DNA of 64,000 nt, taken from Motilimonas eburnea. GTDB lineage: Bacteria; Pseudomonadota; Gammaproteobacteria; Enterobacterales; CBDFNC01. The stretch spans positions 62,001 through 126,000 of the forward strand of contig NZ_JAIMJB010000007.1 in the NCBI RefSeq assembly GCF_021295345.1. Reading direction: 5' to 3'. Each line of letters begins with the position of its first letter. Position 1 is the first letter of the stretch. The notes under the pieces were generated by a model that was not told the origin of the DNA, made no database searches, and saw nothing but the letters and a program-made list of their open reading frames with translations. Positions 12,634 through 42,077 of this stretch are shown piece after piece. The position numbers were made by a program, and so were the translations under genes.

Positions 12634-14879
<2,246 letters not shown>

Positions 14880-14887
<8 letters not shown>

Positions 14888-15593
14888 TCTTTGCGTTATT
14901 CCCGCTCGAGGCGGTAGCAAACGAATCCCACAAAAGAACATTAAGTTGTTTTGCGGTAAGCCTATCATAGCCTACTCCATTGAAGTGGCTAAGGCCTCAG
15001 GGCTGTTCGATAAAATCATCGTATCAACCGATGATCAAGACATCGCTAAAGTAGCGATACAATATGGCGCCGAAGTGCCCTTTATGCGCCCTGCTGAGCT
15101 GTCTGATGACTATACGGGGACAACACCTGTGGTTGCTAATGCTATTCGTTTTATGGAGCAACAAGGTTACCAAATAGATAAAGTGTGCTGTATCTATGCC
15201 ACCGCCCCGTTACTACAAGTAGACTACTTAAATCAAGGCTTTGCCAAACTCTCAGAGCCGGGGTGTGAGTTTTGTTTTTCAGCTACTACCTTTGATTTCC
15301 CAATCCAACGCGCCATTAGGCTATTGCCACAAGGCGGCGTTGAGCCTATGTTCCCCGAGCATATCGGCAGTCGTAGCCAAGATTTAGAAGAAGCCTTTCA
15401 TGATGCAGGGCAATTTTACTGGGGCACAGCTGAGTGTTTCAAAGAAGGTCGCAGTGGGTTTACTTCATTGTCTCGAATGGTGTTACTCCCTCCCTATTTA
15501 GTGCAAGATTTGGATACACTAAGTGATTGGAGGATCCTTGAAGCGCTAAATAGCCTCTACGGTAAACACGCAATTAGCTCACAAAATCAATAA
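14880..15593 (+). CDS. pseF: Pseudaminic acid cytidylyltransferase PseF
   Basis: 237 residues with the CMP-sugar synthetase motif 'IPARGGSKRIPQKNIK' at the N-terminus, close to NeuA. It activates pseudaminic acid with CTP to CMP-Pse, the donor used by Maf proteins. The ATG overlaps the pseC stop. The 3' end overlaps the 3' end of the convergent WbqC-like gene by 20 bases, so no terminator fits between the two transcription units. Confidence 0.94.
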
Positions 15594-18672: not shown

Positions 18673-18673
18673 A

Positions 18674-19522: not shown

Positions 19523-19593
19523 ATTAGAATCCAATTTTAATCAATTAACGCTATTGCTAAGGTTACAGTTTTAAAATTAAAAAAATATCTTAG

Positions 19594-22115: not shown

Positions 22116-23221
22116 GTCCTTACCTCAAATTCATTCACAGCAGTAATTACAGCTCTGACATCTCCCAAAGACATAATTGGAGAAATTGGCAATGAAAGGA
22201 CCTCTTTATGTAAGCTTTCAGTAATAGGGAAATTCAAGTTAGAAATCTCAGGATAAGCTGCTTGCTTATGTGGTGGGATGGGATAATGAATCAAACTTTG
22301 TATGCCTTGCTGCTCTAACCAAGACTGTAAATTATCTCGATGACTTGTCCGCACAACAAATAAATGCCAAACATGTTGGTCACCATAAAATATGGGTAAC
22401 TGTACTTCTGGATGCGTAATACCTTCAATGTAGGCTTTGGCAACCATACGGCGATGTTCAATTTCAGCTTTTAAATAGGGTAGCTTCACACGCAACATAG
22501 CTGCTTGGATTTCATCTAAGCGACTATTGATACCTTGATACAAATTTTCGTATTTCTTATGTGAACCATAATTACGCAGGGCTTTAATGGTTTTCGCTAA
22601 ATCTTTATCATGTGTGGTAACAGCACCACCATCACCTAACGCACCAAGGTTTTTCCCAGGGTAAAAGCTAAAGCCAGCCGCATCTCCCCATGAGCCAGCC
22701 ATGTTACTATCAATCTTGGCCCCGTGAGCTTGTGCGCAATCTTCTAATACAAGTAAGTTGTGATGTTTTGCAATTTTCATTAGCTCAGGCATTGGTGAAA
22801 TGAGACCATAAAGGTGTACCGCCAATATTGCCTTCGATTTAGGTGTAATAGCCGATTCCACACCAGCAATAGAGAGATTGTATGTATTGATGTCTGGTTC
22901 AACGAGAACCGGAGTTAAACGGTTCGCTGTGATAGCCAAAATACTTGCAATATAAGTATTTGCAGGAACAATAACCTCATCACCTTCAGCAAGCTTTCCC
23001 ATCTCTTTCCAAGCACGAAGGATGAGAATTAGTGCATCCAAGCCATTTGCAACACCGATGGCATATTTAGCGCCACAATAATCTGCAAATTCATTTTCAA
23101 AATGACTTAGCTCATCACCCATAACATACCAGCCAGAATCAATAACTCGGGCACAAGCTTGCTTTAATTCATCACTATACTGTTCGTTAATACGCTTAAT
23201 ATTAAGAAATTCGATCGTCAT
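22112..23221 (-). CDS. fdtB: dTDP-3-amino-3,6-dideoxyhexose-forming aminotransferase (FdtB/QdtB type)
   Basis: 369 residues, a DegT-family aminotransferase with '[14 protein letters not shown]' at the phosphate site and Lys in '[16 protein letters not shown]'. The opening '[17 protein letters not shown]' and overall length match enzymes that aminate dTDP-3-keto-6-deoxyhexoses. This assignment is strengthened by the nearby 3,4-ketoisomerase and rfbAB. The product would be dTDP-Fuc3N or dTDP-Qui3N. Start and stop overlap the GNAT gene and the glycosyltransferase gene, both as ATGA. Confidence 0.85.
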
Positions 23222-23742
23222 AATTTCTCAAATATTTTTTTGCATTTAATGATCATCTTATTTACATCCTCTGGATATATCACATATAAGTTATCAAGTT
23301 CTGTTTCACCTACCTGCTTCGCTCCAAACTTTTCATGAAAACTACAAACTGCATAATTCTCTTTTCTGACATCAAAGTGACTTTTAGCACAACCTAGTTC
23401 TTTAAAACCAAATTCATAAACCAACAAGGCACTTTCAATTGAAGCATATCGAGTTTTATCTTGATTTAATATCCAACTCCCCCAGCAGAACGAACCTTCT
23501 CTAAAGTCATACAATCTAACCGTGCCACACCTAGTTCCATCGAGTCTTTCTATGATGAAATAAAACTGCTCTTTGAGCTCTTCTTTTTCTTTATATTCTC
23601 TAATCCACAATTTTTGTGCATCAACATTCGTATCAGATTTGGAAAGGTGCTTGTTGTATTTTTTGTTACTTCGGAGTTCAGATATAAACTCTGCGTCATC
23701 TTCTTGAACAAGGCGGAGCTGAATCGTTTTACTTACAAGCAT
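23218..23742 (-). CDS. GNAT-family N-acyltransferase
   Basis: 174 residues from ATG 23742, which has GAGGTG close upstream; the ATG at 23754 has none. It has the RimJ/PseH-like GNAT pattern: '[18 protein letters not shown]' at the N-terminus, then '[25 protein letters not shown]' (split here between two motifs) around the acyl-CoA site. It overlaps the FdtB-like aminotransferase, so it probably acylates the 3-amino group that enzyme makes. Known FdtC and QdtC enzymes are hexapeptide-repeat proteins, so a GNAT in this role would be a replacement. Confidence 0.75.
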
Positions 23743-23769
23743 TCTACACCTCATTTAAAGTTTCATATA

Positions 23770-23897
23770 ATTACGGATATAGTCCAGTTCATCGTTCTAT
23801 TCTCTATCAGAATAAAATCATCAGAGTCATGGGATACTTTACGCCATCTAAGGAATTTGAGTCATTTAATACTCGTAGAAGATATGTTTACTTGTAG
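23770..23897 (+). pseudogene. Remnant of an IS3-type transposase C-terminus
   Basis: Across frames the plus strand reads 'DIVQFIVLF' then 'QNKIIRVMGYFTPSKEFESF' with a stop at 23895-23897. This resembles the tail of IS3-family OrfB ('FYN...LGY.SP..FE'), with a frameshift in between and no upstream catalytic domain. TGGT and ACCA shortly after (23898-23918) could be part of a decayed end. It lies in the only long gap of the sugar module. Confidence 0.4.
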
Positions 23898-23980
23898 TGG
23901 TCAATTAAAACTTACCACCGCGAACAATCTTTTAAGTACTCAGCCTCACCCTTTTTGGCAATCATGTTCACCTTATTGGC

Positions 23981-24391
23981 TCATGCTTTGTTAGCAAGCG
24001 ATAAAAACTCATCATAATTTCTAATGTAATCGGATTCGTCATAATGCTCACTAGCAAGTACTAATAAAACACAATCATCACTGAAATCATGCATTTCCCG
24101 CCAAACCATACTTTCTATTAATATACCACCTGTGCATGTATCTAAATAAAATTCTTGACGTTCAACGCCATCATCTAGCACGAATCGACATGAGCCCTTT
24201 ACACAAATAGCTACTTGCTTAAGAGCTTTGTGAGCATGATAACCACGAGAAACATTTTCTTTGGTGGCAAAAATATAATAAACCCGCTGAATATCAAATG
24301 GGACGTCTTGATTAGACTCCAATGCAATTAGTGAACCTCGTTCATCGCCACGTACAGGGAAGTTTATATACTTGGCAAGTTGATTAATCAT
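23981..24391 (-). CDS. fdtA: dTDP-4-keto-6-deoxyglucose 3,4-ketoisomerase (FdtA/QdtA type)
   Basis: About 136 residues, a single cupin. The family signature '[19 protein letters not shown]' contains the two catalytic His residues, and '[12 protein letters not shown]' is near the start. It isomerises dTDP-4-keto-6-deoxyglucose to the 3-keto sugar, the branch leading to 3-amino-3,6-dideoxyhexoses. I take ATG 24391, which overlaps the rfbA stop as ATGA, over ATG 24397. FdtA or QdtA stereochemistry cannot be decided here. A transposase remnant separates it from the GNAT gene. Confidence 0.88.
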
Positions 24392-25272
24392 TGCCATTCT
24401 CTCTCTTTATCAGACAATAACTCCTCTAAGTATTGACCATAGGTATTTTTACCCATTTTCTGTGCGGCTAGTTTTACTTCTACCGCAGTGATCCAACCAT
24501 TACGCCAAGCAATTTCTTCCAAGCAAGCAATTTTAAATCCTTGTCGAGCTTCAATGGTTGAAACGAAATTAGAAGCCTCTAATAAACTTTCATGCGTGCC
24601 ACTGTCTAGCCATGCAGATCCTCGACCAAGTAACTCAACGTTGAGTAATCCTTTATCTAAATAAACTTGGTTAATTGCTGTTATTTCTAGCTCTCCTCGA
24701 TTAGAGGGTAAAACATGTTTAGCAATTTCGATCACATCATTGTCATAGAAATACAAACCGGTCACTGCAAAATGTGATTTTGGCTCGCTTGGTTTCTCTT
24801 CAATAGAAAGCGCTAACTGATGGCTATCAAACTCAATCACACCAAAGCGTTCGGGATCTTGAACTTTGTATCCAAATATAGTGGCACCATGAGTTTGCTT
24901 AGCGGCATGGCGAAGTTTAGGAGAGAAGCCTTGTCCCCAGAATAAGTTGTCCCCCAAAATCAAACAAACCGTATCATCACCGATAAACGATTCACCAATA
25001 ATAAATGCCTGAGCTATCCCCTCAGGATGAGGCTGAACGGCATAATTCAACTCTATACCAAATTGTTTTCCATCACCTAATAAACGCTTGAAACTAACTT
25101 GATCTTCTGGTGTTGTGATTATCAAAATTTCTCGGATACCCGCCAGCATCAGAACGGAAAGTGGATAGTAGATCATAGGCTTGTCGTAAACCGGAAGCAG
25201 CTGCTTGGACACCCCTAACGTCGTAGGGTAAAGGCGCGATCCTGTTCCGCCGGCAAGGATAATACCTTTCAT
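24388..25272 (-). CDS. rfbA: Glucose-1-phosphate thymidylyltransferase
   Basis: 294 residues with the nucleotidyltransferase motif '[11 protein letters not shown]' at residues 8-18 and 'DNLFWGQGF' further on, as in RmlA/RfbA. It makes dTDP-glucose from glucose-1-phosphate and dTTP. The start overlaps the rfbB stop as ATGA. There is no rfbC or rfbD here, so the product is routed to the 3-keto branch through FdtA rather than to rhamnose. Confidence 0.96.
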
Positions 25273-26357
25273 ACGCTCACCTTTTCACTATACTGCTTGG
25301 CATGAGATAGATAGGCACCGGTTTGAATATTTTCAATCCAGCTGCGGTGATTTAAGTACCATTGAACTGTTTTTCTAAGGCCTGTTCCGAAAGATTCATC
25401 AGGCGTCCATTCAAGTGCTTTATCTATTTTACTTGCATCGATAGCATAGCGACGATCATGCCCTAACCTATCATCAACATGAGTAATTAAATCTTGATAC
25501 GACGTAGCTTTAGGTACTAACTCATCGAGTAAACCACATATATTTTTCACTACATCGATATTTTTTATTTCATTGTGACCACCAATATTGTATGTTTCAC
25601 CAACATCGCCAGTCATTAACACCGTCAATAACGCCTTTGCGTGATCTTCCACATATAACCAATCTCGAATTTGATCGCCCTTGCCGTATATTGGCAGTGG
25701 CTTATTATCTAAAGCATTCATGATTATTAATGGAATTAATTTTTCTGGAAATTGGTAAGGGCCATAATTATTGGAACAGTTTGTAATCATCGTTGGCAAG
25801 CCATAGGTTTTACGCCATGCTCTGACCAAGTGGTCACTCGACGCTTTAGAGGCTGAATAAGGGCTACTTGGATTATAAGCACTTGACTCGGTGAAAAGTG
25901 GTAAGCTTGCGCCAATTTTAATATCACTCGGATGAGGCAAGTCACCATAAACTTCATCGGTAGAAACATGTAATAAGCGAAACCTTTGTCTCTTCATATC
26001 ATCTAACTCAGACCAATATTTTCGAACGACTTCGAGTAAAGTATAGGTGCCGATGATATTGGTTTCGATAAACGTAGCAGGCCCAGTAATAGAACGATCG
26101 ACATGACTTTCTGCGGCAAGGTGCATAACCGCATCGGGTTGGTATTGTGTAAATACTCTTTTTAATTCAATAGCATTACATACATCGACATATTCAAAAT
26201 GGTATCGGTAATGATGCGAGATAGATTCAAGTGACTCTAAGTTACCCGCATAAGTAAGCTTATCAAGGTTGATAACCGTATGACTTGTATTTTCTAATAA
26301 GTATCTAACAACGGCTGAACCAATAAAACCAGCCCCGCCTGTAACCAGTATTTTCAT
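25269..26357 (-). CDS. rfbB: dTDP-glucose 4,6-dehydratase
   Basis: 362 residues from ATG 26357. Extended SDR with '[16 protein letters not shown]' at the N-terminus, '[11 protein letters not shown]' containing the catalytic Thr-Asp-Glu, and '[14 protein letters not shown]' with the Tyr-x3-Lys pair. It makes dTDP-4-keto-6-deoxyglucose. The start lies just after the stop of the GT61-type gene; a GTG at 26366 is an alternative. It is coupled to rfbA. Confidence 0.96.
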
Positions 26358-26358
26358 A

Positions 26359-27924
26359 TCACTCACTTAACTCATTACCACTTTTATTTAATTTAACTTT
26401 TTCTAACCACAAAGCAATTTTACTTAATTCGATTGTATAATGTTGGTAATACAACCTTCTCGAATCTTGTGTCATACCATCATAAAAAATATAATTAAGT
26501 TCAACACCAACTATTTTTGCAAGTTGAGAGTAGCAGGGAAAATCACCAATTTCTTTAGCCATCCAACACAGGGCTTTTGTGCCCTTTTTGGCAAAAATAA
26601 CATTTGTCCATGCAGCCCCGGTGGGGCCAACTATATATTCTGCATTGGCTATATAAGAGATTTGCTGCTCGATTGTTAGATCTTCCATGTAGACTTCTTC
26701 AAAGCCATATTTGCATAGAAAACTAAACACATCTTTCTGGTTGTACTGCCTTAACACTGGCTTTCTTGCTAAGAATATTCGCTTTGGAGTTACAGTTTTT
26801 TCTATTTCTTCAACTAACTTAAATCCACTTTTTCTTAAATATAAGATTGATTCCTCACGATAGAAACAATCCCTTGGCAACCATTTTCTACGATGATATT
26901 TCGCGTTAACAACGATATTATTTGGCTGTGACATGACTAACAATTGTTCGATTTGATACTGTTTCCCCTCGCCCATAAGTATAAGCTTCCGGCCACACAT
27001 AGCATTGACAAACTTTTCAACTGCAGACATGTTCTTATATGCTGAAGAAATGAGTATAGGATACGACTGATATTTTTTTGGTAACTGTTCAACATATTGA
27101 AGTTGAGTTAACACCTCAATGAGCCAATGATAATAATTTTTTTCATTGCCACCGGATATTAATATACCTTTAGATAATGCCTCACTATAACCACGTCTAA
27201 CCAGTGAATTTTTATTACCGCAAAAAAATACGTTGCCACCGGCATAATCAGCCATATCATCGGTAGAGCTTTTTATCCTTTCAATGACGACTCTGCCATC
27301 CGACAAAATAATTGAACGAGTTGATGAGCGTACACAAGCATTCTCAAAAGAATACAGATTGACATCGGGGAGTGTTATTTTCTCTTTTAGACAATAATCA
27401 TCCAAATGAGTTGGGCCAAAAGCAAAGTCTTCGCGCTTTCCTGCGAATTGATGAACACGATACTCCTCCAACATATCAAGCCAAAGATGCTTTACTAATG
27501 ATAAATTACTATTTCTATAAGTTAACCAAAATAGCCAGTTTGAAATGCAAGGGTAACCACCGCAGATGATTTCATCCCTTATAAGTGAAAAACGTTTTTT
27601 GACATCAGCGAATAACGAGTTTTCAACACTACCAATATCAAAGAAGTTAACGATTTTTTCTTCGTCAATTTTTAGTGATTGAGTGAGCTGAATAAATATC
27701 TCTTTATAATAATCACTCGCTATGATTATTTTTTCAAAATCTATTGATAACGCTTGCTCTGGAGCATAAACAAGCCGGCCAAAGATTTTTTTGCCTTGTT
27801 TATCATTGTTATTATCGATAAAGCCAATAACATCAAACTTGCTTTGGTGTTCCTTGAAGAAGTTTACCCCACCAGCTCCAGTACCAAATATAAATACCTT
27901 GGGCTTTTTCTTTATGCTAATCAT
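26359..27924 (-). CDS. GT61/DUF563-type glycosyltransferase with N-terminal Rossmann unit
   Basis: 521 residues. The first 90 residues are a Rossmann-like unit ('[14 protein letters not shown]', '[17 protein letters not shown]') like the one opening the glycosyltransferase at 20346-22115. The rest matches the GT61 family (DUF563): '[17 protein letters not shown]' in the middle and '[19 protein letters not shown]' near the end. It likely transfers a pentose or hexose in the same glycan. It is strongly AT-rich. A gap of 92 bases separates it from the LuxC-like gene upstream. Confidence 0.78.
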
Positions 27925-28016: not shown

Positions 28017-29153
28017 TCAAGCCAAGTTTTCCATACTAGAGAATTCTGTTAATAAATTCATACCATCCCATTGATGAGAAAACAGTAGGGCCTGACCCAG
28101 AGAGACAAAGCGTAATGCCTTGGTTGGCTTTACATAGTCGTGAGACACAAACGAGCTCATAGTTTGAAAGTTAATAGGAAGTAAATTATCTAACTCAGCA
28201 AGAGATGAGATTGAGAACTCGTAAAAAACACCTTGCCCTGGATGCCTTGGATATGAAGTTAAATTATCAGCAAGTTCTAGACATAAAAAAGGATCTGTGA
28301 TCCTACCTTGTACTGCAATTTTTTGGGAGGCGAACTCTTGTATGAATGAACAACGCTCGGTTAGTATAAAATCAAAGTTGACACCTTTATCATCAAATAT
28401 TTTTGCCACTTCACACCAAAAAAGCTGTTTTGCAGTCTCTACCTCAACGCTATTACCCAACCAAAATATCAACTTAGGTGATGAACACCCTTGCTGATTA
28501 AACCAATACACATCATTATAAAAGTTGTGCACCAAGGACTTTATGTCATCAAGCTCTAGGATAGCTTTCGCATCCAATAACGCGCCAGAAATTTTGTTGC
28601 CAAAGCTGACTTCGTGAGCATGGGCAGGCAACGGGATGCGTTGGATCCGCTCGATGGTTTCATCACCGCCCCAGATGATCCTTAAATCACACAAGCTGCT
28701 GAGCTCTGCGGTCAACTGGCTGCTATTGGGATATTCTACAAATATATTAGCCGCCGCAATGGTTTGATAAGCAGGTTGCGCTAGCGTTTCCTTGATAATA
28801 CGTTCAAGTAAAAATGCCACTTCACCACGACGTTGGCTTAGCCTGACGACATTTTGATTGCCACATAGCAAAGACAAAGCCCATGAGTAAACAAATTGGG
28901 TATCCACATTCGCAGGGGTGATATGAAATGCTAACCCGCAAGCTTTGGCATTGCATGGCAAGTCTTTTGCCATTTGCATCACTTGTGCACGGCGCAGCCA
29001 AAAGCCTAAGCTCATTACCTCTGGCTTATCGCGCTGGTGTAATAAACGCTGGCTGAGGGTTTGCAAAAACTCGACCACTAAAGGGGAAAACGGGGCTAGC
29101 GTCGGCTGAGCTTTAAAAGCGATTGCCTGTTTTAAGATAGCGGCGTCAGTCAT
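28017..29153 (-). CDS. LuxC-like acyl-CoA/acyl-protein reductase
   Basis: 378 residues of the LuxC family (aldehyde-dehydrogenase fold). C223 in 'FNQQGCSSPKLIFWLG' is the acyl-carrying Cys that defines the family. LuxC reduces an activated acyl group with NADPH to an aldehyde. No luxA or luxB is present, so light production is not the role. The start overlaps the LuxE-like gene by eight bases. In this locus it probably handles an acyl group destined for a sugar. Confidence 0.85.
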   Translation of the reverse strand: MTDAAILKQAIAFKAQPTLAPFSPLVVEFLQTLSQRLLHQRDKPEVMSLGFWLRRAQVMQMAKDLPCNAKACGLAFHITPANVDTQFVYSWALSLLCGNQNVVRLSQRRGEVAFLLERIIKETLAQPAYQTIAAANIFVEYPNSSQLTAELSSLCDLRIIWGGDETIERIQRIPLPAHAHEVSFGNKISGALLDAKAILELDDIKSLVHNFYNDVYWFNQQGCSSPKLIFWLGNSVEVETAKQLFWCEVAKIFDDKGVNFDFILTERCSFIQEFASQKIAVQGRITDPFLCLELADNLTSYPRHPGQGVFYEFSISSLAELDNLLPINFQTMSSFVSHDYVKPTKALRFVSLGQALLFSHQWDGMNLLTEFSSMENLA

Positions 29154-30225
29154 GGCTCACCTCTTGGTAGGTATCACTACAGCCTCGGTTTTCCGACTTT
29201 TTGATCCGCCCGAGCACTTCAAAATAGCGCCCTTTTCTGCCACAGGGACAAGTGTCTTCACCTAATATGCGCCCTAAATCCTCGGTTAAAATGCTATGAC
29301 CGGGATAGCTGTGAGGTAATACCGATAACACTTGGATAATGCCTTGTTGGCCAAAGTCGTTAATCACAGAAAGATCTTGTTCGCTACGTAAAATAATGTC
29401 GGCGCAATTGGGAGCATGTAAGTGGCCGTGTTCGCATTCAACAAAGATGGAGCCGGTTTGCTCCACCATGCCATAAAAATTGTGTACCTTGGCGTGGCCA
29501 AATAACTGCTGCATAGCTTGATTAAACTGTGTTCTATCAACCGCTAAATGAGCCAGTTTTTTCCAGCCTCCGCCATGAAAAACAATAGCATCAAGTGGCG
29601 GCAAGGTTTTGCCACTGGCGTGAATGGCTTGGTAAAAGTATTGCCAGATCATAAAGGTAAAGCCAAATATAAGGACTGGTTGGCCTTGGTACTTAGTAAA
29701 GAATTGCTCCAGCTGCTGCCAATTAATTGACATATCAGGGTTCAAAGCATAATGATGATCGCGGCCTAATAATGCAAACCCTTGCACCCCAGCACCGCGC
29801 GCCGAAAAGCCACTGCGGTCGGCAATCAAGTTACTCGGCTCAATGAACAGCATAGGCAAACGCTGTTTACCGCTAAAGTACTGCATGATCTTAACTAAAG
29901 ATTTAGCTTGCAGTTTCGCGGTATCGGCATCGAGATAAATTTTCGCCACCTTGGCAGAGGTCGTACCCGATGACGTTAAGGTTTTAATGATCTGCGATTT
30001 AGGCGCTGACACTAAATCTAATTCTTTAAACAACTGAGCACTTAAAAACGGTACTTTCTCTAAAGAGCTATTTGTTGGCACTAAGCCTAAGGTATCAATA
30101 ATATTTTTATACAGCTGACATTTCTGATAATGAAATTCGGTTAACTGATTAAGCTGCGCTAACAAAATCGCGTTTTTTTGCTCCTTCGTCTGACTATAAA
30201 TTGCATCAAAATCAAGCTCAATCAT
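29146..30225 (-). CDS. LuxE-like acyl-protein synthetase/acyltransferase
   Basis: 359 residues of the LuxE family within the adenylate-forming superfamily. The adenylation motif 'LTSSGTTSAK' is near residue 83, 'NFYGMVEQTGSIF' follows in the middle, and the C-terminal 'CPCGRKGRYFEVLGRIKKSE' with 'RGCSDTYQEV' matches the acyl-accepting tail of LuxE. It activates a carboxylic acid as acyl-AMP and passes it to a Cys, then to its LuxC partner. Start overlaps the AMP ligase as ATGA. Confidence 0.85.
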   Translation of the reverse strand: MIELDFDAIYSQTKEQKNAILLAQLNQLTEFHYQKCQLYKNIIDTLGLVPTNSSLEKVPFLSAQLFKELDLVSAPKSQIIKTLTSSGTTSAKVAKIYLDADTAKLQAKSLVKIMQYFSGKQRLPMLFIEPSNLIADRSGFSARGAGVQGFALLGRDHHYALNPDMSINWQQLEQFFTKYQGQPVLIFGFTFMIWQYFYQAIHASGKTLPPLDAIVFHGGGWKKLAHLAVDRTQFNQAMQQLFGHAKVHNFYGMVEQTGSIFVECEHGHLHAPNCADIILRSEQDLSVINDFGQQGIIQVLSVLPHSYPGHSILTEDLGRILGEDTCPCGRKGRYFEVLGRIKKSENRGCSDTYQEVSHD

Positions 30226-31592
30226 GCTCGGTTCACTTTGCTATTTAACAACAAGGTTTGATAATCTATTTTGCCATTGCTAAGCAAAGGCAAGTCGCTA
30301 ATTTGTGTCACCTGAACCAAACTCGGGTGGATAGCAAAGGTTAAGCGCAAAAACTGTTTTATCTCTTGTTGGCTTACATCACCCACACTCACCACCAGCA
30401 GGTTTTCATCCTCGCCCAAAGCCACCAAGGTTGGATAGCAGCCTTGTTGCAGCCTCTGCTCTAACTCATCCAGACTAAAACGCACACCTTGTAATTTAAT
30501 GATACGTTTAATTCGGCCGCTAATAACAAAATCACCGTCATCATCCAAATAAGCGAGATCGCCCGTATGCAGTTGCTTTATTGCGGGGAAATCACTCAAC
30601 TGAGAAACACAGCTTGCATAGCCCAGCATCACATTGTCACCTTGATAAACCAGCTCGCCTTGTTGTTTGGTTGCGGTTATTAGCTCACCGCTTTCATTGA
30701 GTAAACTTAACTTGCCACCTGGGATCGCTTGGCCTATGCAACCCAATTTCGTGCCCGCTTTGGTCGGATGTAAATAGGCTATGCGCGCCGTCGCTTCGGT
30801 TTGGCCATACATAATAAAAAAGCGTTTTTGGCTTTGTTTGGCCCAAGTTGCAAAGTGGCTAGCTAATGAATCACTTAAACGTCCCCCCGCTTGGGTTAGC
30901 GTGGTCAGGTGTGGTAAGTCCATCTGCTCTAATCTTAGCCGAGCGAGCATTTGATATTGTGCGGGAACCGCCGCCAGATGAGATATGTGCTGCTCTTTCA
31001 TTAACGCCCAAAAACCTTTGTTCATCACCGACTCGCTGGTTAACACCGTTTTTGCCCCCGCGAACAAATGGGAATGCAACACAGATAAACCGTAAGAGTA
31101 ATGCAAGGGCAAGCTAGTGATCGCGCGATCTGCTGGCGATATCTCTAAGTATTCAATAATGGACTGGGCATTACTGATAATATTTTGTAGTGATAAACAA
31201 ACGTATTTTACCGTCCCCGTTGAGCCGGAGGTAGCAAGCATCAAAGCGAGTTCATCGGCTAAGGTGTGGCTGAATTCACTTTGTAATGCCAGCTCTGTCG
31301 CACTTGAATACCAATAGTTGGCTTGAAAATGTCCAACCGTCGCCGCTTTTTGTCCATGAGCTTGTTTGGCATCAAGTAATAACGCAACATGGCCAGCATC
31401 AAGGCAAGCAAGATACATCAAGGTAGCCGCTAACGAGTTATCCATTTCAATGGCAATCAGCTGGCGGGGCTTGCCTTGCAGCGGCAAAAGACAATGAGCA
31501 AAATATTCGGCCAGCTCACTGAATGTCAGCTGCTGCTCATTATCAATCAAGGCAATACCTGAGTGATGCAAATAAGGAGCAAGATAGTTCAT
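30222..31592 (-). CDS. AMP-dependent acyl ligase (acyl-CoA/acyl-ACP synthetase type)
   Basis: 456 residues from ATG 31592, overlapping the SDR stop (ATGA) with GGAG just upstream. Adenylation-domain motifs are in order: 'LATSGSTGTVKYV', 'IMYGQTEATARI', 'HTGDLAYLDDDGDFVISGR', and the C-terminal catalytic Lys in 'LSNGKIDYQTL'. It would activate a carboxylate and load CoA or the neighbouring carrier protein. At 456 residues it is shorter than typical ligases of about 500-550 residues. Confidence 0.85.
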   Translation of the reverse strand: MNYLAPYLHHSGIALIDNEQQLTFSELAEYFAHCLLPLQGKPRQLIAIEMDNSLAATLMYLACLDAGHVALLLDAKQAHGQKAATVGHFQANYWYSSATELALQSEFSHTLADELALMLATSGSTGTVKYVCLSLQNIISNAQSIIEYLEISPADRAITSLPLHYSYGLSVLHSHLFAGAKTVLTSESVMNKGFWALMKEQHISHLAAVPAQYQMLARLRLEQMDLPHLTTLTQAGGRLSDSLASHFATWAKQSQKRFFIMYGQTEATARIAYLHPTKAGTKLGCIGQAIPGGKLSLLNESGELITATKQQGELVYQGDNVMLGYASCVSQLSDFPAIKQLHTGDLAYLDDDGDFVISGRIKRIIKLQGVRFSLDELEQRLQQGCYPTLVALGEDENLLVVSVGDVSQQEIKQFLRLTFAIHPSLVQVTQISDLPLLSNGKIDYQTLLLNSKVNRA

Positions 31593-32314
31593 AGGCTCCA
31601 ACCACCATCGATAGTGATCACTTGCCCAGTGATATATTGGCTTTCATCACTGGCCAGAAAGAGCGCCAATTGCGCGACTTCTTGAGGCAAACCCAAACGC
31701 TGCATAGGGATTTCGGCTAAGGTTTGCGCCAGAGCCTGCTCAGATAAGTTATCCAGTAACGAGGTGTCTATGCTCCCCGGTGCTATGGCGTTAACCCGCA
31801 CTTTTTGACCTGCCAGCTCCAGGGCAAGATTTTTGGTTAGGGCTTCACCCCCTGCCTTACTCGCGCTGTAAACCGCTTGGCCTAAAGTGGCTTTTTGCGC
31901 CAGCACAGAGCTGACATTGATAATGCTACCGCCTTTTTTACTCATCAACCGAGCGGCAAATTGGCAAAGGGGAAATAAAGAAAATAGATTAGTGGTGAAG
32001 CTTTGCTGCAGATCCTCGCCTTTGATAAAGCCAAACCCCTTTGGCTCCATCATGCCCGCATTGTTAATCAGCACATCGAGACCGCCTTGTTTTTGCAGCC
32101 AAGCAAAAAACGGTTTTATATCTTGGGTTTGGGTAATATCCAGCGGATACGTTTCTAGCCTATCTAAGCACTTAGCCAGCTGTTCAAGTTTATCTTTGCT
32201 ACGCGCCACCGCGATGACCCTAGCGCCTTCCCTTAGCATCAGCTCAGCCATGGCTGCGCCTATGCCTCGACTGGCCCCTATGATAACAACGGTTTTATTA
32301 ACAAGGCGCTGCAT
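31589..32314 (-). CDS. Short-chain dehydrogenase (FabG-like)
   Basis: 241 residues, classical SDR: cofactor motif 'GASRGIGAAMAEL', 'NNAGMM', catalytic 'YSASKAGGEAL' and C-terminal 'QYITGQVITIDGGWSL'. The pattern is that of 3-oxoacyl-ACP reductases. With an adjacent carrier protein it probably reduces a carrier-bound keto group or an aldehyde. It begins one base after the ACP stop and overlaps the ligase. Confidence 0.85.
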   Translation of the reverse strand: MQRLVNKTVVIIGASRGIGAAMAELMLREGARVIAVARSKDKLEQLAKCLDRLETYPLDITQTQDIKPFFAWLQKQGGLDVLINNAGMMEPKGFGFIKGEDLQQSFTTNLFSLFPLCQFAARLMSKKGGSIINVSSVLAQKATLGQAVYSASKAGGEALTKNLALELAGQKVRVNAIAPGSIDTSLLDNLSEQALAQTLAEIPMQRLGLPQEVAQLALFLASDESQYITGQVITIDGGWSL

Positions 32315-32315
32315 C

Positions 32316-32555
32316 TTAGAAATCGATATCGTAACGCGCTAAAATTTCACGAGCCTTGGCTACCGAGCTCATGTCGATAATATCATCGGTATCGAGCATG
32401 ATCTCAAACTCGGCCTCAAGCTGAGCTATCAGCACCATGTGCGCGGTTGAATCCCACTGCGGGATGGTGTTGTATTGCAATGAATCAACCACCAGCTCAG
32501 GCGCTATAGTTAACGCTTCACTGAATAAATGTATTAGTTTTTCGTTATTTGTCAT
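32316..32555 (-). CDS. Acyl carrier protein (dedicated, non-housekeeping)
   Basis: 79 residues. S36 in 'QWDSTAHMVL' is the expected phosphopantetheine site (DS motif), followed by a helix and the acidic 'DTDDIID'. It is diverged from housekeeping AcpP (the motif reads DST, not DSL) and starts in an overlap with pseH (TAATG). It likely carries the acyl group processed by the next four enzymes. Confidence 0.88.
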   Translation of the reverse strand: MTNNEKLIHLFSEALTIAPELVVDSLQYNTIPQWDSTAHMVLIAQLEAEFEIMLDTDDIIDMSSVAKAREILARYDIDF

Positions 32556-33097
32556 TATCTAATAAACCGTGTTAATTTCGCTTTGCTGATCTCATAGTCA
32601 GCGAGCGCCAACATCATGGAGACCTGCTCATTATCTTGATTATCTATTACATAGCCCAACTGCTGATTGAAATTTAAAGCCGCCTGATTACTGGGTAACA
32701 CAGTGGCGATCAGCTGCTTCGCCTTGAGTTCATCAAAACAATAATCCGTTAAGGCCAATGCCACACAAAAAGCAAGAAACGTGCCCCGATATTTTTTATC
32801 GCCTAGGTACAACCCCGTTTCTAAGGTTTGCTCTGCTTGTCGCAATGATTGCTTGGTCGGCGATTTGATATTGGCATAGCCAACCAGTTGCCCTTTGTAT
32901 TCCAGCGCAAAATGTTGCTGTGTGTCCAATTGCCCTAAGCCTTTGAACCAAGCCAGCTGCTGTTGTGTGGTGATGATTTGCTGATCTAGCATTTGGCTAC
33001 GAATATCGTCTTGATTGCGCCATTGTCGCAAGGTTTCGATATCGTCTTCTGTGATGGCGCGAAGCACCACCTTGTATGCTGAGATTGCTTGTTTCAT
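32555..33097 (-). CDS. pseH: Pseudaminic acid N-acyltransferase PseH (GNAT)
   Basis: 180 residues, GNAT fold. The N-terminal 'LRAITEDDIETLRQWRNQDDIRS' (given here as start of the motif) and 'QQQLAWFKGL' are the PseH pattern; 'AALNFNQQLGYV' is the C-terminal GNAT motif. PseH acetylates the 4-amino group of the PseC product. It shares an overlapping stop/start with the ACP gene, which suggests its acyl donor may come from the carrier protein. Confidence 0.88.
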   Translation of the reverse strand: MKQAISAYKVVLRAITEDDIETLRQWRNQDDIRSQMLDQQIITTQQQLAWFKGLGQLDTQQHFALEYKGQLVGYANIKSPTKQSLRQAEQTLETGLYLGDKKYRGTFLAFCVALALTDYCFDELKAKQLIATVLPSNQAALNFNQQLGYVIDNQDNEQVSMMLALADYEISKAKLTRFIR

Positions 33098-33198: not shown

Positions 33199-34209
33199 TT
33201 AACTTTTAGCCGCCAAAATTTGTTCAATAAGCAAGGTTGCAACGCGCTTGGCGCCCAATCCATCAACAGCATCAGTGGCAACTTGGCTAAGTTGGCGCAG
33301 TTTTGCGGGATGCGATAATGTGCTATCTAGCCAAGATTGTAACTTGAGTGGATCGATTTGCTTTGCATCTTCCACCAGCTGAAAATCAAGCCAACCTTGC
33401 TCTTTACCTTGCTCTACGGCAGGCAATTGGTTAGGTGCAACAGCATAGGCAAAACAAGGAATTCCCGCTTTGGCCAGCTCAAATAAAGAGCCCCCCGCCG
33501 CAGTGATAGCAAAGTGACATTGCTGCATTCGCTGCGCCATATTCTCGACATTTTGAAAATACTGCACCTTATGCTGCTGACACCAATTGATTATTTCATC
33601 GGCATTGGCTACCGCTGGACCTATGATCACATCTAACAGCGGACCATAACCCCAAGCATGTAATAACTGACAAACAGGTAAGGTTAGACTGGCAACGTCG
33701 CTCGCCCCCATCATCACCAGCATACGTTCACGAGCGGCGATATCAGCAAACGGAGTTAAACAAAATTGCTGTCTTAATATCGCAAATGAAGAGCCAAGTA
33801 ACTTAACCCCGACAAAATCTGGATAGGCTTTACCAGCAACGGGGTTCGTTAATATGCTTGCACTTAGAGGGCCACGGTTATCTTCATCATCGAGCAATAA
33901 ACTCACCGACACTTGGTGATAAGCAGCTATCTGTTGCGCCGTTAATTGATAACTGTCTAAGATAACCCCATCGAATTGCTTGGCGCTTTCAATTGCCAGT
34001 GCTTCATTAGCAATAGCTTCGTTAGCAAATGGGATAACAGAATAAGATGCTAATAAACCTTTGGCTTTTTGGCAAAGTTGCCCCGTGAAGTAAATATTGA
34101 CGCCTTGTTGCTCAAGGGCTTGCGCCAGTGCAAGACAGCGTATCAAGTGGCCAAAGCCAATCTCGGGATACGCATCTAGGCGAATTAAGATCTTGATTGA
34201 ATTGGGCAT
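33199..34209 (-). CDS. pseG: UDP-2,4-diacetamido-2,4,6-trideoxy-altropyranose hydrolase PseG
   Basis: 336 residues, GT-B-like hydrolase. 'EIGFGHLIRCLALAQAL' near the N-terminus contains the catalytic His; 'GGSLFELAKAGIPCFAYAV' in the C-terminal half is the nucleotide-binding site. It removes UDP from the PseH product. It lies 28 bases after pseI. The 101 bases to pseH hold only a short palindromic TAGCGCTA and no clear promoter. Confidence 0.93.
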   Translation of the reverse strand: MPNSIKILIRLDAYPEIGFGHLIRCLALAQALEQQGVNIYFTGQLCQKAKGLLASYSVIPFANEAIANEALAIESAKQFDGVILDSYQLTAQQIAAYHQVSVSLLLDDEDNRGPLSASILTNPVAGKAYPDFVGVKLLGSSFAILRQQFCLTPFADIAARERMLVMMGASDVASLTLPVCQLLHAWGYGPLLDVIIGPAVANADEIINWCQQHKVQYFQNVENMAQRMQQCHFAITAAGGSLFELAKAGIPCFAYAVAPNQLPAVEQGKEQGWLDFQLVEDAKQIDPLKLQSWLDSTLSHPAKLRQLSQVATDAVDGLGAKRVATLLIEQILAAKS

Positions 34210-34237: not shown

Positions 34238-35263
34238 CTAAACCAATAGAGGCCAATCAAGTGGTGTGCCCGGCACAAGATCTTGCGCAGCAACGCGGCC
34301 AAGCACTTGCTGCCAATGCTTTGGCGCCAAGCCTAAGCCGGGACGCACGATGCGCACATTTTCTTCATTAAGGGTTTCGCCTTGCTTGATGGGCTTTGCC
34401 ACATAAATAGAGCGGCGGTAACGTTTTGCCGCCTCTTCTTTTGCCGTGCCGCCATAGGTGACTTGACCTAAGGCATCCAGCGCCCGCTGGCTTTCTGCCA
34501 CTAGCATAGCAAGTTCATTGGGCTCTAAGGAAAATTCGGCATCCACGCCACCTTGACTGCGATCGAGCACGAAGTGTTTTTCGATGATCCTAGCACCAAG
34601 AGCAACCGATGCCAGCGCAGCGCCTATACCTTGAGTATGATCCGACAGCCCCACTTGGCAAGCGAAAGCTTGCTGCATATGTGGGATGGTCAATAAGTTA
34701 GTGTCAGTGGGCGCGGCAGGATAAGTGCTGGTGCACTTTAACAAGGCGATTTCGCCTGCGCCATGAGCTCGAAGGCAGGTAACGGCTTCGTCTATTTCAG
34801 CAAGGCTTGCCATCCCCGTGGATAAAATAACCGGTTTACCTGTAGCAGCTACCTTCTTTAACAATGGGATATCTGTATTTTCAAAAGAAGCAATCTTGTA
34901 ACAAGGTACATTTAGCGATTCAAGAAAATCAACGGCAGTGCTATCAAATGGAGAGCTAAAAGCCAGCATGCCGAGTTCATTGGCTCTATCAAACAATGCT
35001 TTATGCCACTCCCATGGGGTTGACGCTTTACCATACAAATCAAACAACGACTCGCCGGCCCAAAGGCTATCTTGCTCTTGAATGACAAACTCACCTTGGC
35101 GCAAGTCTAACGTCATGGTCTGGGCGGTATAGGTTTGTAATTTGATCGCATGGGCCCCCGCTTGCGCGGCCGCCTCTACCATTTGCATTGCAAGGTCAAA
35201 GTCTTGATTGTGATTGCCTGACAATTCGGCAATAACAAACAGGTCTTGGTTAAAAAAAGGCAC
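34238..35263 (-). CDS. pseI: Pseudaminic acid synthase PseI
   Basis: 341 residues from GTG 35263, which has AGGAG five bases upstream. The frame stays open for another 34 codons to 35365, but that stretch covers the maf-2 terminator and has no family match. Motifs: 'FVIAELSGNHNQDFDLA', 'LSTGMASLAEIDEAV', 'GLSDHTQG' and a C-terminal SAF domain with 'RRSIYVAKPIKQGE'. It condenses the 6-deoxy-altrose derivative with PEP. First gene of the minus-strand pseI-pseG-pseH and acyl cassette run. Confidence 0.94.
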   Translation of the reverse strand: MPFFNQDLFVIAELSGNHNQDFDLAMQMVEAAAQAGAHAIKLQTYTAQTMTLDLRQGEFVIQEQDSLWAGESLFDLYGKASTPWEWHKALFDRANELGMLAFSSPFDSTAVDFLESLNVPCYKIASFENTDIPLLKKVAATGKPVILSTGMASLAEIDEAVTCLRAHGAGEIALLKCTSTYPAAPTDTNLLTIPHMQQAFACQVGLSDHTQGIGAALASVALGARIIEKHFVLDRSQGGVDAEFSLEPNELAMLVAESQRALDALGQVTYGGTAKEEAAKRYRRSIYVAKPIKQGETLNEENVRIVRPGLGLAPKHWQQVLGRVAAQDLVPGTPLDWPLLV

Positions 35264-35316
35264 AAATACTCCTGACGAAAAATTCTGATTCACGACTTTT
35301 TGGTTTATGTCGTAGC

Positions 35317-35341
35317 AAAAAGCCCCACAATAATGGGGGGC
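35317..35341 (-). terminator. Terminator after maf-2
   Basis: GCCCC and GGGGC pair around a 10-base loop and are followed on the minus strand by TTTTT. It ends the flaG-fliD-fliS-fliT-maf operon before pseI. Confidence 0.75.
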
Positions 35342-35372
35342 ATAAGCCACAGAATAGCAACTCAATGCTATG

Positions 35373-37430
35373 TTATTTAGTTTTTAGGAATTGGAAAGGA
35401 AATTTAGTTTTGTCGGGCACGAGCAGCTGCTCTGAAAACTTCTGTTTCATCCCCTCTAAATAATCACGTAAAATCGCTAAACCTTCTTGATGAACAGCAA
35501 GCGTTTTCTCAACATCTACCTGGCTTTGTAATAATCTACTGAGTACCGTGTGAGTATATAACAAGCTACCTCTGACCATATCTTTCAAGAATAAACTGTT
35601 AATTTCTCCACCGCTTTCAGCAAATACATATTGCTGATATAAATTAGTGATCGCTTCTTGACGCGTAGTAAGAGGACGCAATGTGAACGCGATTAGTTGG
35701 TCTATATAATGGCAAAAATCTAGCTCAACCAGCTTTTCTTTAAACATAGTGGCAAAGGCCGATGCATCAAATTGATAGTATTCTAAGGTTGAGTTTATCA
35801 CCTTTCCTTTATCAAGCTCTGTTCCAGATAACACAAGCTCATGGGGCTCTAATGGTTTTGCTCCTTCAATGAGGGCACCATCACTTAAATTAAAACAATT
35901 TAAGCTCACATTATCTGCAATCACGCGCTCTAGCGCTTTTAAAGAAAAACCAAAAATGTAGCTACTTCGTACCGTTCCGCCAAAATTTCCTTTGACCTCG
36001 ATTTTATCCTGGCTTTTTTGGTGGAATACCTTCCGGTCCTCACCATTTTCATAATATACACTGTCAATGCTGTGGTGCTGACCATTTGGGAATCCTAGAT
36101 CAATACCGATAAAATAGATGTTTTTAAATCCAAGTGCTTCAACGATACATAAAGCAGTATTGGCAACGGTTGGATTGCAATAAAGAATTCCTTTCATTTT
36201 CTTGGCCTCCTCACTCATGGAATAAGTGAGAGAGGTGGGTGGCTCATTCAGTTTGAGTCCCATTATTTTTCGATCAAATAATGCAAATGCTTCAGGGCTC
36301 ACTGTATTCATTGACAAAAGCACCATTTCTTTAAGCACTTTTGGATCAACGGTGAGCAATCGTTCCGTTACCTGCCATGTCCGTTCTTGCTCAACATGCA
36401 TATCGGGAACTATGCCATTTTTAAGCAAGCTGTCGATAGCTGTTCCGCAACTGATTACAATTGCCTTACTTTGCTGTGCTTTGATTAGGGCGATATTTTT
36501 ATCTAAAGAGGGGCCATTACCACAGAGAAAAACGGGAATGTTAGCATTATTCTGAAATGCCGGCTTATCCTCAATAACAGGAATATCCTTGAGGTTATAG
36601 TAGTGATGGGCGGTTGCAATAAGACCATCATCAAAAAAACCAAAGCCAAATGCAAGTTCATAGGATCGTTGCTTATAGACTTCACACGCTTTGTTTATTA
36701 CATCGCTATCGTAATGCTTATATAAGTAGCTTTTACCTATATCGTAACCACCTTTGTATGTCAGTTCTTTAGTAAGATCAGCAAAGAAAGCTTGCTCATT
36801 CGCACCTAAGCAAAAATGTAAAGAGCTGCCCATTTCATCGAGTTTTTCTAAAATCGACTTCCAATCTATCAGATGTAAAGAAGCATAAAAAAAGTCGTGA
36901 TTAGGTTCGTATATATAAAGTCGATTAACCTGATGGTTGCTGATTAGATTTTCTAAATAAAAGCCGGTACCGAGGCCAAAACAAATCATTAAGCCAAGTG
37001 ACTCAGGAAAAAAGCTTTCTGCAAACTCCAGTTCTCTATTTTGTAATTCAACTAACTTATTCAGATACTCATAATGTAAGAAGCCGGACGTTTGAAATGA
37101 TTTGTTAACTAGCATATTACTGCTGTCAGGTTGGCGTTTGTATAACTCAAAATCAAAAAGGCAGCTGCGATAAGCATCGCCACCAAAGGTTAAAACATCT
37201 GACCCTTTTTGCACCAAATCAACACTTGCTTCAGTGGCGACTAGTTCAAAGCTTTCCGGTTCATAATACTTAAAGGCTTGCGCAATATCTGGAATATAGT
37301 CTTCAAAAGCGCTGATGTTGATGGCAAATTGGGTTTGATAATCTTTATGGTGATAAGGTAACTGGGAGACGGCTTGTAAAATATCCTGTTTTATCGTTTC
37401 TATTTTAGAAGCTGCAGGTAAATCACTCAT
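35373..37430 (-). CDS. Motility-associated flagellin glycosyltransferase Maf-2
   Basis: 685 residues, the long form of Maf. An N-terminal domain ('LMICFGLGTGFYLENLI', 'LYIYEPNHDFFYASL') precedes the MAF_flag10 core with 'VFLCGNGPSLDKNIALI' near 300 and 'IYFIGIDLGFPNGQHHS' near 440, and a helical C-terminus. It should link pseudaminic acid to flagellin Ser/Thr. It is cotranscribed with the flagellin chaperone genes, four bases after the FliT-like gene, which suits action on flagellin before export. Confidence 0.92.
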   Translation of the reverse strand: MSDLPAASKIETIKQDILQAVSQLPYHHKDYQTQFAINISAFEDYIPDIAQAFKYYEPESFELVATEASVDLVQKGSDVLTFGGDAYRSCLFDFELYKRQPDSSNMLVNKSFQTSGFLHYEYLNKLVELQNRELEFAESFFPESLGLMICFGLGTGFYLENLISNHQVNRLYIYEPNHDFFYASLHLIDWKSILEKLDEMGSSLHFCLGANEQAFFADLTKELTYKGGYDIGKSYLYKHYDSDVINKACEVYKQRSYELAFGFGFFDDGLIATAHHYYNLKDIPVIEDKPAFQNNANIPVFLCGNGPSLDKNIALIKAQQSKAIVISCGTAIDSLLKNGIVPDMHVEQERTWQVTERLLTVDPKVLKEMVLLSMNTVSPEAFALFDRKIMGLKLNEPPTSLTYSMSEEAKKMKGILYCNPTVANTALCIVEALGFKNIYFIGIDLGFPNGQHHSIDSVYYENGEDRKVFHQKSQDKIEVKGNFGGTVRSSYIFGFSLKALERVIADNVSLNCFNLSDGALIEGAKPLEPHELVLSGTELDKGKVINSTLEYYQFDASAFATMFKEKLVELDFCHYIDQLIAFTLRPLTTRQEAITNLYQQYVFAESGGEINSLFLKDMVRGSLLYTHTVLSRLLQSQVDVEKTLAVHQEGLAILRDYLEGMKQKFSEQLLVPDKTKFPFQFLKTK

Positions 37431-40135: not shown

Positions 40136-40951
40136 TTAACCAATCAAAGATAGTGCAATTTGAGGCTGCTGGTTAGCTTGCGCTAACATTGAACTAGCAG
40201 CTTGTTGCATTACCGTGTTTCGTGCCATTGCAGCAGATTCAGCTGCAAAGTCAGCATCCATGATACGGGATTTAGATGCTGCCACGTTCTCTGAAATATT
40301 GGTTAAGTTACGAATAGTTGACGAGAAACGGTTTTGCTTGGCACCTAAGTCTGCACGTGTGTCGTTTAATGTCGCCAGCGCCGCATCGAGCTCTCCAACC
40401 GCTGTTTGCGCATTAGCCGCTGTAGAAATACCGGTTGAGACCGCTAACCCTGTGGTATTCATTGCCGTTGAAACTGAAATTTCAATTGTTTGGTTTGCAT
40501 CTGCTCCCACTTGGAAAGCAGCAGTGTAAGTGCCATCCAGTAATGTTACACCACCAAATGTGGTGTCTGATGCTACACGGTCAATTTCGGTTTTTAGCTC
40601 TGAGTATTCTTTGTTCAATGCTGCACGGTCAGCAGTGGTGTTCGAACCGTTTGCAGATTGTAGTGCCAATACACGCATACGTTGTAACATGTTAGTGGTT
40701 TCGTCTAGCGCGCCTTCAGCAGTTTGCGCAAGAGAAATACCATCGTTAGCGTTACGTGCGCCTTGATTTAGACCATTAACCTGCGCTTGTAAACGAGAGC
40801 CGATTTGTAAGCCCGCCGCATCATCTGCTGCACTGTTTACACGTAGGCCAGAAGATAAACGTTGAAACGACTTAGATAGGCCGTCTGTAGCGTTAGTTAG
40901 GTTACGTTGTGAGTTTAGAGACTGAACGTTAGTATTTACGTATAAAGCCAT
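40136..40951 (-). CDS. Flagellin (sigma-28 controlled, FlaB-like)
   Basis: 271 residues, a short flagellin lacking D2/D3 domains, as in Shewanella. Starts '[18 protein letters not shown]' and ends '[16 protein letters not shown]', the conserved coiled-coil ends. A GGAG-like site precedes the ATG and a sigma-28 promoter lies about 100 bases upstream. In Shewanella putrefaciens two flagellins occupy different filament segments; this gene has the later promoter and would be the main distal flagellin. It is close in sequence to the next gene. Confidence 0.95.
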
Positions 40952-42019: not shown

Positions 42020-42055
42020 TTTTTTATCTCCATAATTGCTAACACTTTGAACACT

Positions 42056-42070
42056 GCAACATGCATGCCA
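42056..42070 (-). promoter_or_regulatory. Sigma-54 promoter of the flgL-proximal flagellin
   Basis: TGGCATGCATGTTGC on the minus strand, a full GG-N10-GC match. Expected start near 42044, giving a 25-base leader to ATG 42019. Sits in the short flgL-flagellin gap. Confidence 0.9.
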
Positions 42071-42077
42071 AAAACAT

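Follow-up and report, generated by a model that had tools for sequence, protein, structure and literature searches.

Flagellar glycosylation islands in which pseudaminic acid (Pse) genes adjoin acyl-activating and acyl-reducing genes have been described in Aeromonas. As listed in sections of the comparative study, the islands of the 98 Group II strains contain pseH, an acyl carrier protein (ACP) gene, a 3-oxoacyl-ACP reductase, an AMP-dependent synthetase, luxE and luxC (PMC7874193), and the same kinds of genes are reported from 71-80 Enterobacteriaceae strains (PMC4875605). Where these papers discuss function, both propose fatty acid or liposugar chemistry, for Aeromonas a fatty aldehyde or 'liposugar' (PMC7874193, PMC4875605). 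Here, we analyze a cassette of this kind in Motilimonas eburnea, at positions 28,017 to 33,097 of a 64,000-nucleotide stretch of contig NZ_JAIMJB010000007.1 (positions 62,001 to 126,000; assembly GCF_021295345.1) that we call the window. Like the Group II islands, as far as these are described, the window has pse genes, a five-gene set after pseH (orf1-3, luxE and luxC in Aeromonas), a maf gene beside pseI and a second maf; the glycosyltransferase gene fgi-1 (GT2) follows luxC in 97 of the 98 Aeromonas strains, whereas the window has a GT61 gene there (26359-27924) (PMC7874193). Since the order has been published for Aeromonas, the arrangement is not new; what is new here is the assignment of the acyl product, not the gene order. 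We propose, with a probability of roughly 0.55, that the cassette is a tetronate-type acyl-supply module that was recruited to the pseudaminic acid pathway and gives Pse5Ac7(dihydroxybutyryl). The proposal reaches beyond one genome: flagellar and surface-glycan clusters often contain this gene set, which stands in print as fatty-acid or liposugar genes.

The tetronate pathway of Vibrio cholerae O1 is encoded by rfbKLMN(O) (wbe), which, like the cassette, provides a carrier protein, an acyl ligase and a LuxE domain. RfbN contains the LuxE domain and is described as involved in tetronate synthesis (PMC4772473); the role ascribed to RfbL is to activate 2,4-dihydroxybutanoic acid, either for CoA or for the carrier RfbK (PMC12208996). 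The acyl group, C4H6O3, is placed on the amine of a 4-amino-4,6-dideoxy sugar. In the accounts cited, the V. cholerae pathway itself rests largely on sequence prediction. It serves the O-antigen, whereas the window cassette would serve flagellin. An earlier note on this DNA, made from its letters alone, had drawn its comparison with the Pseudomonas viosamine system; in gene content, the tetronate pathway comes closer. The Shewanella sfm genes were considered as a model as well and rejected: the five genes are described as NeuB, a thiamine diphosphate (TPP) enzyme, a 3-oxoacyl reductase, a methyltransferase and an ATP-grasp protein, with no luxC, luxE or ACP in that description (PMC3765264).

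All six open reading frames (ORFs) of the cassette are present on the minus strand:

32555..33097, minus strand: PseH-like GNAT N-acyltransferase of a cassette-linked clade (TIGR03585, loop, tree and structure model)
32316..32555, minus strand: acyl carrier protein, S36 as phosphopantetheine site (DS motif, conserved D35 and S36)
31589..32314, minus strand: short-chain dehydrogenase/reductase (SDR), FabG-like, proposed aldehyde-to-alcohol reductase (family models; S136, Y149, K153)
30222..31592, minus strand: AMP-forming acyl ligase, probably an acyl-ACP ligase (family models; T124-S125-G126, K444)
29146..30225, minus strand: LuxE-like acyl-protein synthetase, C349 near the C-terminus as putative acyl acceptor (PF04443, 7xc6 alignment)
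28017..29153, minus strand: LuxC-like acyl-thioester reductase, C223 (PF05893, 7xc6 alignment)

The junctions are a 1-base overlap between PseH and ACP, a 1-base gap between ACP and SDR, and overlaps of 4 bases (SDR-ligase, ATGA), 4 bases (ligase-LuxE) and 8 bases (LuxE-LuxC), confirming the one-directional, tightly overlapping run that the earlier note had described. The ligase may start at 31601 (TTG, as listed) or at 31592 (ATG); its 4-base overlap with the SDR refers to the ATG and becomes 13 bases from the TTG. Wider spacers flank the run, with 101 bases from the end of pseG to pseH and 92 bases from LuxC to the GT61 gene, and a promoter and terminator scan gave weak consensus matches only. 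The same six-gene order, which the note had suggested seeking in other genomes, is kept in 36 of 46 distinct PseH-type loci when intervening genes are ignored; in the remaining loci, the ligase and LuxE are fused (2), the SDR lies ahead of the ACP (2) or the SDR is missing (6). Because the genes overlap and their order is kept, the six genes form one unit, which also supports the note's view of a single pathway.

Pfam and NCBIfam scans assigned LuxE (PF04443, 1.6e-44, the single match in the whole genome) and LuxC (PF05893, 1.5e-24) and placed the PseH-like, SDR and ligase proteins in the GNAT, SDR and AMP-binding families, the SDR being nearest to FabG-type families. For the ACP, neither Pfam nor NCBIfam had a model that matched at the limits applied; it was identified by its size, by the DS motif around S36 and by its resemblance to the ACPs of other cassettes. 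Of the named relatives found, the nearest is Motilimonas cestriensis, whose LuxE is 94% identical to that of the window. Among the run and the scanned neighbours, which is where we looked, the six genes include no LuxD or luciferase, and luxAB did not appear among the scanned proteins of the region, although no search was aimed at it.

The catalytic residues are almost invariant among cassette proteins that passed the score limits; these were chosen by similarity to the window proteins and include one duplicate pair. D35 and S36 are present in 82/82 aligned ACPs, S136, Y149 and K153 in 69/69 SDRs, T124-S125-G126 and K444 in 91/91 ligases, C223 in 89/89 LuxC proteins and C349 in 99/101 LuxE proteins, the other two being gaps. 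The residues singled out in the earlier note (S36, the C-terminal Cys of LuxE and C223) were thus correct. We take C349 and C223 to be the acyl-carrying residues. Such conservation suggests that the set can adenylate an acid, form a thioester, reduce it to the aldehyde and then the alcohol, and load the ACP. Moreover, the ligase is fused to LuxE in two loci (L122 and L152), suggesting that both enzymes belong to a shared substrate line.

The luminous LuxC-LuxE reductase (7xc6) resembles the window pair in the C-terminal Cys of LuxE, the active Cys of LuxC and the reduction of a carboxylic acid by two proteins. Window LuxE aligns with its LuxE around C349 (5.5e-17, 65 bits), and window LuxC aligns with chain A around C223 (1.7e-4). 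Unlike luminous LuxCDE, however, the window proteins stay far under the family cut-offs (LuxE 61.9 vs 550 bits, LuxC 37.9 vs 750 bits), and their predicted substrate is a polar C4 acid. In phmmer searches, window LuxE scored 184 and 181 bits against the LuxE-LuxC proteins of two loci, L153 and L154, above the 65 bits for 7xc6. These loci hold, in a row, an ACP, an AMP ligase, an iron-containing alcohol dehydrogenase and an 830-residue LuxE-LuxC protein, a layout that is reportedly the one of V. cholerae O1 rfbKLMN and that was seen here in L153 and L154 only, neither of which carries a V. cholerae label. Compared with L154 rather than with V. cholerae itself, the window likewise has a dedicated ACP and an AMP-forming ligase, and it has the LuxE and LuxC reduction pair as separate genes where L153 and L154 have them fused. 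Window LuxE is 32% identical to L154 over 360 residues and the ACP 34% over 65.

The cassette is tied to window-type pseH. Searching named genomes for LuxE returned 65 loci, 64 of them above the 150-bit limit; adding 40 stretches from the order's remaining LuxE-positive genomes and removing two exact duplicates left 102 distinct LuxE loci for comparison. Some contigs are short, so that the neighbour counts are lower bounds: a ligase lies within 2.6 kb in at least 88 loci, LuxC within 3 kb in at least 87, an ACP within 8 kb in at least 84 and an SDR within 8 kb in at least 68, while PseI and window-type PseH each occur on the piece in at least 46. A class-wide search with the PseH family was unspecific (273/369 genomes) and was replaced by order-wide searches for PseI, LuxE and PseH. 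Among 394 genomes, PseI (E<=1e-100) was found in 140 and LuxE (E<=1e-30) in 41, of which 39 also have PseI. Window-type PseH (E<=1e-14) occurs in 33 genomes and is accompanied by LuxE in 32 of them (Fisher 9.5e-38, kinship ignored); in the sole genome without LuxE, G426, PseH scores just 61 bits. Stretches from 40 of the 101 PseI genomes that lack LuxE yielded no window-type PseH, the best score being 61 bits. Within the genus, LuxE is absent from two genomes (G001 and G003), which have, where the cassette is missing, an ORF of some 500 residues that matches PseG and has a weak match to the PseH profile (33 and 23 bits).

The window PseH itself differs from its described counterparts. The model of ACYLTRANSFERASE, the PseH-like acyltransferase, has a predicted local distance difference test score (pLDDT) of 94, and its three best fold matches are chains of Helicobacter pylori PseH (4ri1); the PseH structures of Helicobacter and Campylobacter (4ri1, 4xpk) are the best fold matches and occupy the same place in the pathway. 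The earlier label 'pseH' therefore holds for fold and for the position in a full pse pathway, but not at equivalog level: with TIGR03585 the protein reaches 69.1 bits, 24 bits under the cut-off of 93.1, whereas PseB, PseC, PseF and PseI exceed theirs and PseG is just under. In contrast to that of the Helicobacter and Campylobacter enzymes, its GNAT CoA loop is missing the second Gly of G-x-G and contains a two-residue insertion. This Gly is kept in 8/8 canonical, 15/16 cassette-less and 12/14 fused PseH but in just 3/54 cassette-linked ones (one duplicate among the 54), of which one further has Ala at the position and 50 also have the insertion. A quick tree computed with the loop excluded groups 47 cassette-linked rows in one clade (SH-aLRT 89); it comprised 76 of 92 rows, leaving out 14 fusions, one duplicate and one badly aligned row. 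The window PseH is, judging from these comparisons, a distinct acyltransferase of a cassette-linked clade, and the loop change may be taken as a hint, not proof, of ACP as the donor.

The N5 acetyl group of Pse derives from UDP-GlcNAc, and therefore PseH decides what is placed on N7. Aeromonas piscicola AH-3, which is placed in Group II, carries a Pse derivative for which a mass of 376.14 Da is given; after deletion of fgi-1, this derivative is the only sugar left (PMC7874193). Pse5Ac7(dihydroxybutyryl), i.e., Pse5Ac7 + C4H6O3, has a computed mass of 376.148, and among 27 acyl groups combined with acetyl at N5 only C4H6O3 fell within 0.05 Da. The sugar mass of AH-3 and the V. cholerae O1 tetronate precedent, taken together, point to a dihydroxybutyryl group. 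For other Aeromonas flagellins, the sources list Pse5Ac7Ac of 316.13 Da in A. caviae Sch3N (PMC3958885) and a 403 Da sugar in AH-1 (PMC4691044). A literature search that paired dihydroxybutyryl, hydroxybutanoyl or tetronate with either pseudaminic or nonulosonic acid returned no record with both among the matches listed, which is not proof of absence; one marine review among these matches contains '4-hydroxybutyramido'.

The same masses bear on the other acyl groups that might be supplied. A long-chain fatty acyl or fatty aldehyde, as suggested for Aeromonas and Enterobacteriaceae (PMC7874193, PMC4875605) and in keeping with the LuxE, LuxC, FabG-like and ACP annotations, is very improbable, since the saturated acyls C6, C8, C10, C12 and C14 each miss the 376 Da unit by at least 3.9 Da, both Lux-type proteins lie far below the luminous cut-offs and window LuxE is nearer to the L153 and L154 proteins than to 7xc6. 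We regard another short hydroxyacyl transferred by PseH as unlikely, although it deserves more weight: it could be 4-hydroxybutyryl made from succinate, or 3-hydroxybutyryl with the SDR acting as a true 3-oxoacyl reductase. The closeness of the SDR to FabG-type families speaks for this reading, the fold search with window PseH also reaches FdhC with a 3-hydroxybutanoylamino product (5ktc, rank 12), and cassettes of other lineages may have different substrates. Pse5Ac7 with hydroxybutyryl would, however, weigh 360.15 Da instead of the 376.14 Da of AH-3, unless N5 carried glycolyl, and LuxE and LuxC are not evidently needed for 3-hydroxybutyryl.

The cassette product could also end up elsewhere. 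The heptasaccharide of AH-3 leaves 102.04 Da for a terminal unit, the nominal mass of C4H6O3, and this unit could be the same group as the C4H6O3 acyl. The cassette might serve another acceptor, either an outer glycan unit of this kind or the dTDP-3-amino sugar of an FdhC-like GNAT encoded at 23218. In two cassettes outside pse loci (L039 and L121), the ACP is preceded by a hexapeptide acyltransferase instead of PseH, and LuxC is followed by a DegT aminotransferase. Yet LuxE accompanies window-type PseH in 32 of 33 genomes, PseH and ACP overlap by one base and the 376 Da Pse stays when the outer glycan is gone, as stated for the fgi-1 mutant (PMC7874193), so that we consider another acceptor improbable. 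The earlier note had left the transfer to PseH or the GNAT at 23218. PseH is kept as the probable transferase; the GNAT at 23218 is the less likely transferase for the cassette product because it is FdhC-like (1.4e-49 to 5kta) and lies beside its own dTDP-sugar genes. The note's unusual acyl group on the amino sugar is retained in that the cassette most likely supplies a non-acetyl group for PseH, and the AH-3 mass and the tetronate precedent refine it to dihydroxybutyryl.

The proposed mechanism starts from what is observed, namely the gene set, the active-site residues, the co-inheritance of cassette and PseH clade and the layout shared with rfbKLMN-like operons. LuxE would convert a C4 dicarboxylic acid, probably malate, to the acyl-AMP at one of its carboxylates and take the acyl onto C349, from where it would move to C223 of LuxC and be reduced to the aldehyde. 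The SDR would convert the aldehyde to the alcohol, yielding dihydroxybutyrate, with which the AMP ligase would charge the ACP. The PseH-like GNAT would then put the acyl, in place of acetyl, on the 4-amine (N7 of Pse) of the UDP-2-acetamido-4-amino-trideoxy-altrose formed by PseB and PseC, and PseG, PseI and PseF would lead to CMP-Pse5Ac7(dihydroxybutyryl), which Maf would attach to flagellin. From this framework we infer malate as the precursor, the sequence of events (whether reduction precedes or follows loading), direct donation by the ACP and the product formed in Motilimonas. In a variant that we hold only tentatively, the dicarboxylic acid would be reduced while bound to the ACP: the ligase would load malate or a relative, LuxE and LuxC with the SDR would turn the free end into an alcohol, the PseH clade would have switched from acetyl-CoA to acyl-ACP, and the flagella would be coated with Pse5Ac7(dihydroxybutyryl). 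If this variant holds, the module may, with other acyltransferases, diversify amino sugars across several phyla, and many 'fatty acid' annotations in surface-glycan clusters may stand for polar C4 acyl pathways. A polar C4 acyl, if correct, would give an identity to the Pse derivative that appears in the Aeromonas description merely as '376 Da', make a flagellar sugar predictable from sequence in many genomes and connect the flagellar system with tetronate synthesis in V. cholerae O1. The cassette also offers a direct test of whether a sugar GNAT accepts acyl-ACP.

Several observations weigh against a tetronate-type module that makes dihydroxybutyryl for PseH. The 376 Da mass is an Aeromonas value, not one from Motilimonas, and it is of low resolution, the printed m/z values giving 376.09. 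O-Methylglyceroyl is isomeric with dihydroxybutyryl (C4H6O3), and when both acyls are left free, six further listed pairs fall within 0.05 Da: glycolyl + hydroxybutyryl, propionyl + glyceroyl, two hydroxypropionyls and formyl + dihydroxyvaleryl at 376.148, and two other pairs at 376.112. The ligase is just 23% identical to that of L154 (458 residues) and LuxC just 25% (165 residues). The tetronate operon differs from the window in its reductase and acyltransferase: the window has an SDR where we take RfbM to be an iron-containing alcohol dehydrogenase, and a GNAT (PseH) where we take RfbO to be a hexapeptide acyltransferase, the type found in L039 and L121; RfbN presumably includes the LuxC part. 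The cassette would thus work like a tetronate module without being a strict member.

The distribution adds further counterpoints. The SDR is absent from 6 of the 46 PseH-type loci. Nine of the 41 LuxE genomes have no window-type PseH, although for G491, one of these nine, the contig breaks off within a fragment of PseH; therefore, the cassette is not specific to PseH and serves other partners too. In one genome (G053), PseH and a ligase are present, but neither an ACP nor LuxE or LuxC was found next to them. Six of the 53 cassette-linked GNATs in the tree fall outside the clade; they come from loci of Bacillus, Robertmurraya, Pseudovibrio, Arcobacter, Lachnospiraceae and Zixibacteriota. For the most part, the loop change goes back to a single event, and an independent-pairs test was not significant. 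Furthermore, neither FdhC (5kta, 5ktc), a GNAT that places a hydroxyacyl on an amino sugar, nor the FdhC-like GNAT at 23218 aligned to it carries G-x-G in the loop, and FdhC was solved with CoA (per the title of 5ktc); thus the loop is no proof of an ACP donor, and its use as such was dropped after this comparison and the pairs test.

Upstream of the cassette follow pseG, pseI, maf, then fliS, fliD and two flagellin genes. Each of the six pse steps has a gene, so that the pathway is complete in the window:

33199..34209, minus strand: PseG (TIGR03590 149.3 bits vs cut-off 153.55, just under equivalog)
34238..35365, minus strand: PseI, pseudaminic acid synthase (TIGR03586 491.3 bits, cut-off 340.25)
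35373..37430, minus strand: Maf-type flagellin glycosyltransferase (Maf_flag10_N, MptE-like)
12747..13742, plus strand: PseB (TIGR03589 553.2 bits, cut-off 407.75)
13739..14887, plus strand: PseC (TIGR03588 504.1 bits, cut-off 423.5)
14880..15593, plus strand: PseF (TIGR03584 326.7 bits, cut-off 205.7)
40136-40951 and 41201-42091, minus strand: two flagellin genes, likely the glycosylated product (family models on the first only)

PseI as listed begins about 40 residues ahead of its family match, and its true start is probably downstream. The two Maf-type (MptE-like) genes lie on opposite strands (11046-12398 and 35373-37430), like those of the Aeromonas Group II islands. At 22112-26366, RmlB, RmlA, FdtA, the FdhC-like GNAT (23218-23754) and a DegT gene look like a pathway for a dTDP-3-amino-3,6-dideoxyhexose; the solved product of FdhC, the near relative of this GNAT, is a 3-hydroxybutanoylamino sugar. 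A low-GC segment at 16293-20289 has the look of a variable glycan island, with a sulfotransferase, a methyltransferase and two DegT genes that overlap.

Beyond the window, the label 'in a pse locus' has to change 10 times on the LuxE tree (95 rows, FastTree), with at least 5 of the changes forced, and LuxE is therefore not confined to pse loci; some rows labelled 'other' are cut-off contigs, and the placement of the luminous-type and L153/L154 sequences is unsure. Plasmid relatives were found in 34 records, each below 60% identity, and phages gave one distant LuxE-type match. Megablast against ecoli_genomes returned no near match, a search that distant relatives would escape. In G053, a cassette-type PseH is followed by the ligase (L197:9258-11656) and the only LuxE of the genome lies 63 kb off in a DegT-type cassette (L121), making supply in trans possible. 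A Maf-type gene sits between ligase and LuxE in L147 and likewise in L135 (about 1200 residues). In L034 (12301-14729), a phosphoenolpyruvate mutase and a TPP enzyme like phosphonopyruvate decarboxylase lie directly 3' of LuxC, and a phosphonate may be on the same glycan. Three loci from Gastranaerophilales and Lachnospiraceae (L013, L017 and L018) combine LuxE, LuxC and the ligase with varying sets of TPP enzymes, NeuB-like, and FabA-like or ketoacyl-ACP synthase III proteins. Further forms outside pse loci have two SDRs (L123) or two LuxE copies (L141, genome G606).

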